Source: Mollicutes bacterium (GTDB lineage: Bacteria; Bacillota_I; Bacilli_A; RF39; UBA660). Taken from it: 35,550 nt of DNA. The stretch lies in NCBI GenBank assembly GCA_012799635.1, contig JAAZKW010000048.1, forward strand, positions 1 through 35,550. Direction: 5' to 3'. Each line of letters starts with the position of its first letter. Within the stretch, counting starts at the first letter, position 1. Under the pieces are notes generated by a model. The model was given only the letters and a program-made list of their open reading frames with translations, was not told the DNA's origin and searched no databases. Below are positions 3,864 to 34,061 of the stretch, one piece after another. The translations under genes and the position numbers were made by a program.

Positions 3864-3869
3864 TATCAT

Positions 3870-3891
3870 AGGTTCTAGGTAACTAGAACCT
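3870..3891 (+). terminator. Hairpin between dnaK and pepF, probably a partial terminator or processing site
   Basis: Perfect 9-bp stem AGGTTCTAG-GTAA-CTAGAACCT with GNRA-type loop; only a poor T-tract (TATGTTTGTTTAG). Confidence 0.65.
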
Positions 3892-3919
3892 TATGTTTGT
3901 TTAGTTAGGGAATAAGTAT

Positions 3920-5674
3920 ATGAAAATAGATTTAAAAGAATTATTTGAAAACGATAAAGAATTTGAAGCAGAATATAATCAAGTTAAAGGGAAAATCAAA
4001 GATTATTCAAAATATGAAGGGCATCTATATGATAGTGCAGATATATTATTAGAGTTTTTATTGTTTGATAGAGATATTAGTGTGAGACTAGAAAGATTAT
4101 ATTTATATGCTCATATTAATAATGATTTAGATTTATCTAATACTCATTATCAAAATTATTTAATTATGATGATGAATTTAATTAATGAAATAAGAGAATT
4201 ATCTTCGTTTGTTTCATCAGAACTTCTTTCAAAAGATTTAGATTATTTTGAAAAATTAATTGAAGAAAATAGTCATTTAAAAGAGTTCTTTTTATCTATG
4301 AAAAAATTATTTAGAAATAAGAAATATATTAAAAGTAAAGAAGAAGAGAAAATTATTTCTATTCTAACATCTACTTATAATAAACCATCAGAAATATCAG
4401 AGTATTTAATAAATACTGATTTAAAATATGGTTTTATAAAAGAAGGTGGAATAAGAAAAGAGATAACTAATTCCAATATGTCTAACTTCTTTGAAAGTTC
4501 TAATCCTAAAATAAGAAAAGATGTTTTTAATAAAGTTTATAATGAAATAAAAGCTCATGAGAATACTTTCGCCTCTATTTTAAGTGCCGAAATTATTAAT
4601 AATAATAAAATTGCTAAATTAAGAGGATTTAACAGTAGTAAAGAATATAGTTTATATCAAGATGAAATTGATCCTAAAATATATTCATCCTTAATTAAAG
4701 GTGTTCGTAATAATTTAGATAAGTTTTTTAAATATTTTGCTTTTAAAAAGAAAGCATTAAATTTAAAAACGATGCATATATATGATACTTATGCCAATAT
4801 TACAGAAAAATATAATAAAAAATATTCTCTTAAAGAAGGATTAGATATTATTATCAACTCCCTTTCTATTTTAGGAAAAGATTATACAAAAGTATTAAGA
4901 AAGGCTTTTGAAAATAATTGGATGGATACTAGAATTATAAAAAACAAAAGAAGTGGTGCTTATTGTACTTGCTGTTATTTAACCCATCCTTATGTAGTTA
5001 CAAACTATGAAGAAAAACTAAATGATTTATCTACTATAGCACATGAATTTGGTCATGCAATGCACTATTATTATGCTCAAAAGAATAATAGTTATCAAGA
5101 TTATGGTTATTCCATTTTTGCTGCAGAAGTAGCAAGTCAAGTTAATGAAATTATATTAACTGACTATTTACTTGAAAATACCAATAATAAAGAAGAAAAG
5201 AAATATTTACTCGATTTAACATTACAAAGATTTAAAGCAACAGTTGTAAGACAAACAATGTTTGCTGAATTTGAAGATAATCTTCATAATATGGAGCAAA
5301 ATGGAAGCCCTCTTACTAAAGAAAGTATTACTGATGAATATTTAAAATTAAATAAAATATATTTTGGTAATAATGTTTATGTTGATGATAAAATTAAATA
5401 TGAATGTTTTAGAATACCACACTTTTACTATAACTTTTATGTATATCAATATTCAACAGGTTATGTTGCAGCAATGAAAATTGCAAACGATATTATAAAC
5501 GGTAAGAAAGGTGCTTTAGATAAATATTTAGAGTTTTTAAAACTTGGAAGTACGAAGAATCCTATTGAATCATTAATGGTTGCAGGTGTTGATATAAACA
5601 ATTCAAAAATATATGATGAAGTATTTGATGTATTTGAAGAAAAACTAAAGGAGTTGAAAAAATTATATGAGTAA
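3920..5674 (+). CDS. pepF: Oligoendopeptidase F, M3 family metallopeptidase
   Basis: 584 aa; [12 protein letters not shown] zinc motif and M3B architecture. Confidence 0.93.
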
Positions 5675-25708: not shown

Positions 25709-26959
25709 ATGAAATATAGAAAACACGTATTTGAATATCTTGATGTTATGTGGTATACGACTTCCTCGGGGAGTAAAAAGTCAAAACAAGAGATAATAAT
25801 AACCGGAAGAAAAGATAAAAAAAGACATTTTTTATGGTTGATTCTCTGTTTTTTTGCTATTACAATTTCTCAAGTTGATTCTTTTTTTCTAAATATTTAT
25901 ATCCTTGTTTTTCTTACTCCCTCATTTGAAATTGATTTAAATATAAAAGCTAATTTAATACTAATTTTGTTAATAATTTTTCTTCTTTTACTTATTAATT
26001 TAGTATTAATAATATTGCCAATAATAACAGTATTATTTAAAAGGCGCTTTTTATATAAAAAAATGGAGCCTAAATCTACTAAGGTTAATATATATTCTAG
26101 GGAATTACCAAGCAAGTTAAGACCAGCTCATGTAAGATGCCTTTTGCACGATGGAAAGATAGATGGTGTTTCTTTAGGATCTACAATTATTGATTTAGTA
26201 GATAGGGGTTATTTGGAATATATTAAAAATAAAGATAATAAAGATAAATTAATTTTCTTTCATGAAGATATCAAACTTAGAGTAACCAATAAATCTCAAG
26301 ATGATTTATTAAAATATGAAAAATTTATTATTGAATGGTTTATATTTGGCTATGGTAATGGTACTGAAGTATCAGCAAAAGAAGTTAATAATGGTTTAAA
26401 GAAAAGATTGTCAAAATATAATTTAGATTCGGCTCATATTTTTTTAGAATGGCAAGCCTTAGTATTAATGTCTTTTCCAATCGATAAGTATTATAAAAAA
26501 TTAGATCAGACTAAATATTCTCGTCATTTAATATATGAAATTTTGGGAATTATAACTATATTTACAAAAATAGGAGCAGCATTGTTTATGTATGGCTCTG
26601 GAATGCGTCTTTTATCTAATCCTAAAAGAGCATTAAATCAAGAAGGTGTAGATGAAATATATAGTTGGTTAACCTTAAAGAAATTCTTAAAAGATTTTAG
26701 TGATATGGAAAATAAAACAGCAGAAATGGTTAAAATATGGGATTTTTATTTAACATATTCAATTGCCTTAGATATATCTGAAGTTGCATCAAAAGAAATA
26801 GAGACCTTTTTTGGCGATAATATATATACTGGCACTTTAAGTAGAGCGATGTTTGTTTCTAATACTACTCCTCAAAGTGGTAATTTATATGATGAAAAAC
26901 AAATTAAAACTTTCGAGGTATTACAAAAAGAAATCGAAGAAGAATATAAAAAGTTGTAA
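25709..26959 (+). CDS. DUF2207-like membrane protein (C-terminal part)
   Basis: ELPSKLRPAHVRCLLHDGKIDGVSLGSTIIDLVDRGYLEY and LTLKKFLKDFSDME…IWDFYLTYSIALDIS. Confidence 0.65.
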   Translation: MKYRKHVFEYLDVMWYTTSSGSKKSKQEIIITGRKDKKRHFLWLILCFFAITISQVDSFFLNIYILVFLTPSFEIDLNIKANLILILLIIFLLLLINLVLIILPIITVLFKRRFLYKKMEPKSTKVNIYSRELPSKLRPAHVRCLLHDGKIDGVSLGSTIIDLVDRGYLEYIKNKDNKDKLIFFHEDIKLRVTNKSQDDLLKYEKFIIEWFIFGYGNGTEVSAKEVNNGLKKRLSKYNLDSAHIFLEWQALVLMSFPIDKYYKKLDQTKYSRHLIYEILGIITIFTKIGAALFMYGSGMRLLSNPKRALNQEGVDEIYSWLTLKKFLKDFSDMENKTAEMVKIWDFYLTYSIALDISEVASKEIETFFGDNIYTGTLSRAMFVSNTTPQSGNLYDEKQIKTFEVLQKEIEEEYKKL

Positions 26960-26981
26960 AAAAAAATATTTGTGATAAAAT
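26954..26981 (+). promoter_or_regulatory. Promoter of the prs leader
   Basis: TTGTAA - 16 bp - TAAAAT with extended -10 TG (TGATAAAAT). Confidence 0.6.
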
Positions 26982-27003
26982 GAAATTATAGAGAGGTATT
27001 GTT

Positions 27004-27063
27004 ATGAGAAAACTAAATTTTGATATTTGTTGTTTTTTGTCTAACAATATTTTTATACACTAA
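27004..27063 (+). CDS. Candidate leader peptide MRKLNFDICCFLSNNIFIH
   Basis: SD GAGAGG 7 nt upstream; stop TAA lies in the 5' arm of the prs leader terminator. Confidence 0.55.
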   Translation: MRKLNFDICCFLSNNIFIH

Positions 27064-27083
27064 ATTTTGTTTAGTGTTTTTTT
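27057..27083 (+). terminator. Terminator/attenuator in the prs 5' leader
   Basis: ACACTAAA-TTTTG-TTTAGTGT + TTTTTT, 14 nt before the prs ATG. Confidence 0.85.
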
Positions 27084-27097
27084 ATGGAGGAGAGGAT

Positions 27098-28195
27098 ATG
27101 AAAAACAATTTAGGCTTAATAGTAATGGATAGCATAAAAGAGGTTGGGTTGAAGGTTGAAAAAGAATTAAATCGTTTTCTTAAAACAAATGAAAATTATA
27201 TTATTCCGACAAAGATAATAAGATTTGCAAATGGTGAGGGAAAAGCAGAAATTTTGCAAACAGTTAGAGATAAAGAAATTTATATTTTAACAGATATTAA
27301 TAATTATAGTATTACTTATAATATGTTTGGTTTTGAAAATCATTATTCACCAGACAATCATTATCAAGACGTTAAAAGAATAATTCTTGCTATGTGTGGA
27401 CATGCTAAAAAAATAACCGTTGTAATGCCATTTTTATATCAATCAAGACAACACCGTAGGAAATCTAGAGAATCATTAGACTGTGCTCATGCTTTACAAG
27501 AGCTTAAACGAATGAACGTAGATACAATAATAACTTTTGATGTTCATGATCCCGATATAATTAATGCTATTCCATTAGGAAAGCTTGAAAATTTTTATGC
27601 TAATAATAATATCCTTGAAGCTATAGTAGAAGAACATGATATTACCTCTAGTAATACGATAATAATTAGTCCTGATTTTGGTGCTATGGAAAGAGCAAGA
27701 TATTTTGCAGAAATGTTACAAGTTGAGGTTGGAGTTTTTTATAAGCGAAGAGATTTATCAAAAATAGTAAATGGGAAAAATCCCGTTATAGAGCATGCTT
27801 ATATGGGTGCAGATGTGAAAAATAAAAATGCAATTGTAGTTGATGATATGATTGCATCTGGTGGATCTTCTGTAGAGGTGGCAGAAAACCTTAAAGAAAG
27901 AGGAGCTAATAAAATCTTTATTGCCTCAACATTTTGCCTATTTACCGAAGGAATTGATTTTATAAAAAAAGCTTATAAAGAAAAGATCTTTGATAAAGTA
28001 TATACTACTAATTTATCTTATCTTCCAAAAGAAATAAAAAAAGAAAGACTTATAAAGGTCGTTGATTGTAGTAAAGATTTAGCTGAGGTAATTTATTATG
28101 GGTATATGAATAAGTCAATGGCTCCACTTTTAGACAACAAAACTAGATTCTTTGAAGAATTAGAAAAAATAAGAACTAGAAAAAAAGGAAAATAA
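27098..28195 (+). CDS. prs: Ribose-phosphate pyrophosphokinase (long form)
   Basis: PFLYQSRQHRRKSRESLDCAHALQEL, ITFDVHDPD, VVDDMIASGGSSVEVAENLKERGA; start ATG 27098 after GGAGGAGAGG (track start 27020 is upstream of the terminator). Confidence 0.93.
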   Translation: MKNNLGLIVMDSIKEVGLKVEKELNRFLKTNENYIIPTKIIRFANGEGKAEILQTVRDKEIYILTDINNYSITYNMFGFENHYSPDNHYQDVKRIILAMCGHAKKITVVMPFLYQSRQHRRKSRESLDCAHALQELKRMNVDTIITFDVHDPDIINAIPLGKLENFYANNNILEAIVEEHDITSSNTIIISPDFGAMERARYFAEMLQVEVGVFYKRRDLSKIVNGKNPVIEHAYMGADVKNKNAIVVDDMIASGGSSVEVAENLKERGANKIFIASTFCLFTEGIDFIKKAYKEKIFDKVYTTNLSYLPKEIKKERLIKVVDCSKDLAEVIYYGYMNKSMAPLLDNKTRFFEELEKIRTRKKGK

Positions 28196-33222: not shown

Positions 33223-33849
33223 TTATTTAGTACCAAAAATCCTATCTCCGGCATCACCTAGTCCAGGAACAATATAATTATTCTTATTTAGTCTTTTATC
33301 AATACATGCGGTATATATCTGTACATCAGGATGATTTTCTTCAACAAGTTTTATTCCTTCGGGAGCAGCAATAATACATAAAAACTTTATTTTTTTAACA
33401 CCTTTTTCTTTTAATAAAGAGATTGCATCAAGAGCAGAACCACCAGTTGCAAGCATAGGATCAACAATAATTACTTCTCTTTTTTCAATATCTTTTGGTA
33501 CTTTGAAAAAGTAATTTACGGGTTTAAATGTTTTTTCATCACGATACATACCAATGTGACCAATTTTTGCATTAGGTATTACACTTATAACTCCATCAAG
33601 CATTCCTGTTCCTGCTCTTAATATTGGAACAAAAGCATATTTGTGTTCATCTAACATATAAGTATTCATTTTTTGAAGCGGGGTTTGAACAGTTACTTTT
33701 TCAAGTTTAGCATCTTTCATTGCTTCATAACAAAGCAGCATTGCAAGTTCACTAGTAAGTTCTCTAAATTTTTTAGTTCCTGTTTTTTCATCTCTTAATA
33801 TTGCAAGTTTATGAGTAATTAAGGGATGATTAAGTTCAATTGTTTTCAT
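33223..33849 (-). CDS. upp: Uracil phosphoribosyltransferase
   Basis: [45 protein letters not shown]. Confidence 0.96.
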
Positions 33850-33870
33850 ATCTCCTCCAATAAAGAGAAA

Positions 33871-33907
33871 ACAAAAAAAAAGAGTCCCTAAAAATTAAGA
33901 CTCTTTT
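33871..33907 (-). terminator. Terminator/attenuator in the upp 5' leader
   Basis: On minus strand AAAAGAGTC-N12-GACTCTTTTTTTTTG, 21 nt before the upp ATG. Confidence 0.8.
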
Positions 33908-33957
33908 AATCTTATATTTAATATTCTTGAAATTATTAAATTATTTTTTGTTTTCAT
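33895..33957 (-). CDS. Candidate leader peptide MKTKNNLIISRILNIRLKES upstream of upp
   Basis: 20-codon ORF whose stop abuts the terminator 5' arm; SD (AAGG) is too close to ATG. Confidence 0.3.
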   Translation of the reverse strand: MKTKNNLIISRILNIRLKES

Positions 33958-34061
33958 CCTTTTTAAATAATAATACAATTTTTAATGAAAGGCAAGGTTT
34001 TTATTACAAAAACTTGTATTATTTTTGTTTTATTATAAAATATTCTTAGAGGTGACTAACT

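Follow-up and report, generated by a model that had tools for sequence, protein, structure and literature searches.

The prs gene encoded in the window, the 35,550-nucleotide stretch of DNA analysed here, is preceded by a short leader that probably acts as a translation-coupled transcription attenuator with a closed ribosome-binding site. In this leader, a promoter-like site is followed by a Shine–Dalgarno sequence (SD1), a short open reading frame (ORF), an intrinsic terminator on which the ORF stops and a second ribosome-binding site (SD2) that serves prs, and a hairpin covers SD1. We found the same order of elements in front of prs in seven lineages of a family of uncultured, gut-type Bacilli, six of them with the hairpin, and no antiterminator is shared among them. 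The first-pass annotation had proposed translation- or ligand-coupled attenuation of prs. Our analysis appears to support and generalize its core idea, and the gate on SD1 would be a new variation on translation-coupled attenuation. To our knowledge, no attenuator in a leader of a PRPP synthetase gene has been described, and a literature search for one found none. The features of the leader and of prs are as follows.

26954–26981, + strand: promoter-like site TTGTAA-N16-(TGTG)ATAAAAT for the leader (sequence; matching position in g126 leaders)
26992–26996, + strand: SD1 (AGAGG), the ribosome-binding site of the leader ORF (sequence; AAGAGGTA nearly invariant in g126)
26992–27004, + strand: 5′ strand of hairpin 1, comprising SD1 and the first base of the leader start codon (folding; codon shuffles, p 0.005)
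27004–27063, + strand: leader ORF of 19 codons, MRKLNFDICCFLSNNIFIH and stop (sequence; in 27 leaders the stop keeps its place relative to the stem)
27012–27022, + strand: upstream copy of the 11-mer ACTAAATTTTG, the antiterminator of the first-pass annotation (no counterpart in other lineages)
27042–27054, + strand: 3′ strand of hairpin 1, within the leader ORF (folding, codon shuffles, g126 covariance model)
27057–27083, + strand: intrinsic terminator, stem 27057–27077 and U tract 27078–27083 (sequence, dinucleotide shuffles)
27085–27095, + strand: region with SD2, the prs ribosome-binding site, GGAGGAGAGG (sequence)
27098–28195, + strand: prs, encoding a PRPP synthetase of 365 aa (NCBIfam NF005299; score 436.6 bits, cut-off 327)

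The window constitutes one of the 61 contigs in a low-GC genome of 1.15 Mb, whose relatives are titled Bacilli, Erysipelotrichaceae or Clostridium metagenome-assembled genomes, many of them from rumen and gut. The product of 27098–28195 is a divergent yet clear PRPP synthetase, with Pfam and PDB matches to ribose-phosphate pyrophosphokinases. This genome, which is 88.65% complete, encodes two PF00156 proteins, prs and the uracil phosphoribosyltransferase upp, both inside the window, and nicotinate phosphoribosyltransferase (NAPRTase) is encoded elsewhere in the genome, outside the window. In the small genomes G352, G438, G144, G243, G001, G006 and G008, prs is the sole PF00156 protein, NAPRTase was not found, and a PRPP consumer is not evident.

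The terminator reads ACACTAAAT-TTT-GTTTAGTGT at 27057–27077, then TTTTTT to 27083, and is separated from the prs start at 27098 by 14–20 nt. It is present where the first-pass annotation had placed it, 14 nt from the ATG, and among 2000 dinucleotide shuffles of the window's upstream region, 7 produced a terminator as good as this one no more than 30 nt from the start. To call it perfect was an overstatement, as it is a modest terminator with two G-C pairs and −6.7 kcal/mol. The claim that no further promoter would fit is plausible but unproven, given that other terminators of the family lie 16–30 nt from prs directly behind an upstream gene (L017, L113, L124, L099, and L067). There is little promoter space at these five loci, and their prs may likewise depend on readthrough. 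Within the window, a strong terminator (CATAGGTTCTAGGTAACTAGAACCTTATG) in the region ~3868–3919 stops 24 nt short of the gene at 3920, directly behind the upstream coding sequence, so terminators near gene starts are not rare in this stretch.

Upstream of the terminator, the promoter-like sequence TTGTAA-N16-TGTGATAAAAT is present at 26954–26981 as had been claimed, but shuffled sequence contains matches of this kind at no lower frequency. It predicts a transcription start at ~26988, just upstream of SD1, and 15 g126 leaders also have a −10 element ~10 nt before AGAGG (TTAAC..TTGTTATAAT). The leader start codon is at 27004–27006 and the stop codon TAA at 27061–27063, inside the 5′ arm of the terminator. 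Each element that the first-pass annotation named can be read from the sequence. The open ORF of the window is unremarkable when taken alone (p 0.25).

Loci of prs in the family were gathered from named records and by searching sets of 117, 386, 18, 3 and 5 genomes. Most prs upstream regions are without this leader: the genes that precede prs are different, and a promoter-like site is usually present no more than ~60 nt from the prs start. A terminator lies within 30 nt of the prs start in 28 of 187 distinct upstream regions; when near copies are counted, the figures are 44 of 223 real regions and 6 of 669 shuffled ones. Once terminators that immediately follow an upstream gene are set aside, 27 leaders from seven lineages share the order promoter, SD1, ORF, terminator, SD2 and prs. 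They comprise 15 of 15 prs loci in g126, 5 of 5 in g123, two in g56, two in g58, one in g57, L038 (JAIKYM010000148) and the window. SD1 stands nearly at the predicted RNA start, and the ORF has 13–35 codons and is open to the terminator stem in all 27 (chance 0.02–0.30 each, with stops in the other frames of nearly all). In every leader the ORF stops at a position −6 to +22 nt relative to the start of the stem, a feature partly selected for outside the two wholly surveyed genera, where detection required a stop near the stem.

The first-pass annotation had looked to related genomes for conservation of the leader, and the outcome is mixed. No such leader was found in near relatives in the window's own genus, and the closest prs, L013 (68% identical), is without one, but the layout recurs before prs in the seven lineages. 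The window leader stands alone in its genus and is supported by the shared architecture and by its own p values. On the prs tree, the leader-bearing rows that were included (window, g56, g126, and L038) need at least four gains or losses, so the leader comes and goes, kept or re-evolved, and is not one frozen copy. The conserved part of the prs leaders is the architecture and not the sequence. The L013 gene (G001:C7:29134-30205) is split by in-frame stops or a frameshift in that assembly.

The terminator could merely end the upstream gene, which in the window encodes a DUF2207 protein, with prs expressed by leaky readthrough or from a promoter overlapping the terminator and with the ORF incidental. 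The weakness of the window terminator and the five loci in which a terminator directly follows the upstream gene are in line with this explanation. However, the upstream gene of the window ends 98 nt before the stem with the promoter-like site in between, and leaders across two genera keep SD1, the ORF and the hairpin. Furthermore, the leader of L158 is kept although the nearest upstream gene is divergent, so that its terminator cannot serve that gene. We consider this explanation of the leader unlikely.

The complementarity between TATTGTTA (26997–27004) and TAACAATA (27042–27049) reported in the first-pass annotation is confirmed, and it forms the core of a longer, 13-bp helix, 26992–27004/27042–27054, that covers the SD of the leader (folding z −2.3). 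In this hairpin 1, SD1 and the start codon pair with the 3′ half of the ORF itself. Compared with codon shuffles that keep composition and peptide content, the pairing between SD1/AUG and the ORF has p values of 0.005 in the window, 0.001 in L038, 0.001 in g56, 0.002–0.05 in g123 and a median of 0.013 in g126. Folding gives p 0.007–0.008 for SD1 pairing in g58, and neither codon shuffles nor folding revealed an SD1 hairpin in g57. The SD1-closing hairpin is present in six of the seven lineages, with a combined p of 8e-8 when one median value is taken per lineage and of 7e-14 within g126, values that overstate independence because leaders within one genus are related. The pairing sequences are wholly different among lineages, for example AGAGGUAUUGUUA/UAACAAUAUUUUU in the window and GUAGUAAU/AUUGCUAU in L256.

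The window stem belongs to a recurrent SD-covering hairpin, which in g126 shows compensatory changes. In the g126 structure, terminator helix included, 89% of cells are paired compared with 47–60% for slid partners, and there are 14 double-changed, compensatory cells as against 5.5 in shuffles (0/500; terminator helix again included). Hairpin 1 of g126 was detected by testing a named structure and by codon shuffles; RNAalifold on the g126 alignment found the terminator alone, because the 3′ strand of hairpin 1 shifts register. When a g126 covariance model was run against the 35-kb window, the leader was the better of two insignificant hits (E 1.9), and among 145 family genomes the sole g126 genome was matched at prs alone. 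Three weak hits of this model (L165–L167) were set aside as ordinary terminators of unrelated genes, at least two of which share AAACTAAC/GTTAGTTT.

An additional possibility is that the leader ORF feeds ribosomes to prs by reinitiation, or that hairpin 1 serves to shield the mRNA at its 5′ end, while the terminator sets a fixed low level of expression. The leader stop is roughly 30–60 nt before the prs start, and reinitiation from leader genes has been put forward as a general phenomenon (PMC4833913). These functions would, however, leave unexplained both the closure of SD1 by ORF pairing in six lineages and the placement of the stop on the terminator, and we hold them to be improbable.

The first-pass annotation had further proposed an antiterminator formed by a repeated 11-mer. 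Both copies of ACTAAATTTTG are present, at 27012–27022 and 27059–27069, but across the leader set the ORFs show no enriched pairing with the terminator arms (combined p 0.96 for the 5′ arm and 0.03 for the 3′ arm), and the repeat is unique to the window. We therefore rejected an RNA antiterminator. With no shared antiterminator pairing, a gate on leader translation is a better reading of hairpin 1 than one half of an antiterminator.

The leader peptides are not conserved, and no amino acid is common to all 27. The CC or CxC motifs in the first few peptides had suggested a cysteine attenuator of the trp/his type, in which ribosome stalling at leader Cys codons would choose between antiterminator and terminator. 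Such motifs occur in the leaders of the window, L038, L148, L154, L157 and L159, and the leaders contain 30 Cys compared with 18 expected from base composition (z 2.9). We dropped this as the main idea because 10 of the 27 leaders have no Cys. Moreover, Ser, Ala and Asn deviate more than Cys in leader composition, there is no enriched antiterminator pairing, and Cys has no link to PRPP. The leader stop is also at the stem, whereas amino-acid attenuators keep it >20 bp away (PMC4824070). Cysteine control of prs thus seems very unlikely.

A leader that precedes a PRPP gene and has a structured 5′ end might equally sense a ligand or a protein, with hairpin 1 as the aptamer or protein site (for PRPP, a nucleotide or a PyrR-like protein) and the ORF as a by-product. 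The ligand half of the earlier proposal was not borne out for known ligand RNAs, as the Rfam covariance models, including that of the PRPP riboswitch, matched neither the window nor any of five other leaders. The sequence and loop of the hairpin are not conserved within or between genera, unlike those of aptamers, and PF00156, the family of PyrR, is represented in the 88.65% complete window genome by prs and upp only. We give a sensing aptamer or protein site only a slim chance.

The upp gene lies at 33223–33849 on the − strand, and its upstream region (33850–33960) contains a terminator (AAAAGAGTCTTAATTTTTAGGGACTCTTTT) 28 nt before the start in which a 20-codon ORF ends; the SD of this ORF is poorly spaced and there is no SD hairpin. 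No such arrangement of ORF and terminator was found in 14 other upp upstream regions. Shared regulation of prs and upp was rejected, since the upp of the window is without an SD1 hairpin and has no counterpart among those 14.

Translation-coupled attenuation of prs, the other half of the earlier proposal, is supported by the recurrence of the layout in seven lineages and by the stop placement in all 27 leaders. We infer that the leader may work in the following way. Transcription would begin just upstream of SD1. In a nascent leader free of ribosomes, hairpin 1 would shut SD1 and the start codon, the terminator would form, and transcription would end before prs, making OFF the default state. 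SD1 would be usable only until the complementary strand ~40–60 nt downstream has been transcribed. A ribosome that reaches SD1 in time would translate the short ORF, keeping hairpin 1 open, and at the stop codon in or next to the terminator stem would mask the 5′ arm, allowing RNA polymerase to read into prs (ON). The peptide sequence would be irrelevant, and the thing sensed would be the timing of ribosome loading relative to RNA synthesis. In an E. coli experiment, termination fell from ~90% to <10% when the stop codon was shifted from 28 bp to 5 bp ahead of a terminator, and this repression of termination was lost when translation was uncoupled (PMC4824070). With the stop on the terminator, a ribosome can thus suppress termination, and translation of the leader should accordingly turn prs ON, whereas an untranslated leader should leave it OFF.

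With SD1 gated in this manner, the outcome would depend on polymerase speed versus ribosome loading. Either a low supply of nucleotides, perhaps of UTP, would slow the polymerase and open prs in a homeostatic loop, or the leader would respond to free-ribosome or initiation capacity. Nucleotide supply acting through polymerase speed is the most likely signal, and a role in PRPP and nucleotide supply fits prs as the regulated gene. It is a tentative suggestion that the leader is a purely kinetic nucleotide sensor, timing polymerase speed against ribosome loading, with the closing hairpin setting the period in which SD1 can be used. The U content of the leaders is 30–53%, compared with 25–36% in their own prs (higher in 26 of 27) and 37% in other prs upstream regions, and a high U content would favour UTP sensitivity. 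A UTP-specific claim is unwarranted, because the NusG pause motif TTNTTT is not enriched in the leaders beyond composition and some leader-bearing genomes are without upp. In B. subtilis, RNA polymerase reportedly runs ahead of the ribosomes ('runaway transcription', cited in PMC9226507), which would weaken the coupling if valid in the leader-bearing family; the same paper describes an expressome in Mycoplasma.

Among known systems, the prs leader resembles the UTP-sensitive, translation-coupled termination of E. coli pyrBI and pyrE, in which translation of a short ORF, and not its peptide, prevents an intrinsic terminator; these systems also act on nucleotide-supply genes, through a U-rich leader, a trait that the prs leaders may share (pyrBI details in part from PMC4824070). 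In pyrBI the terminator is located within the leader gene itself (PMC4824070); the ORFs of all 27 prs leaders, which we propose are translated, end within −6 to +22 nt of the stem start and have unconserved peptides. Unlike pyrBI, the prs leader has its SD1 closed by pairing with the ORF, is shorter (13–35 codons), controls a different gene and belongs to a different phylum, with no sequence relation. The uORF attenuators of Bacillus vmlR, tlrB and bmrC are also from low-GC Gram-positive bacteria and place a small ORF in a hairpin before an intrinsic terminator (PMC9226507). However, they use antibiotic-stalled ribosomes, and in vmlR also a competing antiterminator, to control antibiotic resistance genes, whereas prs is a housekeeping gene whose leaders have the stop on the terminator and no conserved antiterminator. 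Amino-acid attenuators (trp, his and mycobacterial poly-Cys) share the leader peptide and terminator but differ in their regulatory codons, which have no conserved equivalent in the 27 prs leaders, and in a stop >20 bp upstream; a competing antiterminator is not enriched across those 27 leaders. PyrR attenuation and the PRPP riboswitch likewise control nucleotide or PRPP genes by leader termination, unlike the prs leader in that the latter has no Rfam match or conserved aptamer.

In other lineages of the family, a palindrome like TGTTATTAATATAATGTTAATAACA overlies the prs −10 element (L005, L076, L091, L092, L100, L101, L104, L106, L110, L112, L118, and L128), and a second copy is often found near the start in these 12 promoters, which looks like a repressor operator pair. 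These lineages seem to use an operator palindrome instead of the leader, making prs a good case of regulatory turnover. The 27 leaders embody one architecture in natural variants whose sequences are unrelated from lineage to lineage, so that its rule (SD1 gate, short ORF and stop on the terminator) is open to direct testing. If the attenuator is real, PRPP supply would be tied to the pace of RNA and protein synthesis, and a small-genome lineage would regulate PRPP synthesis without a dedicated regulator. Bacilli, in which the coupling of transcription to translation is disputed, would then be using it to sense metabolism. Should the kinetic sensor also hold, PRPP synthesis in these Bacilli would be under a feedback that needs neither a protein nor a ligand and that arose repeatedly at prs.
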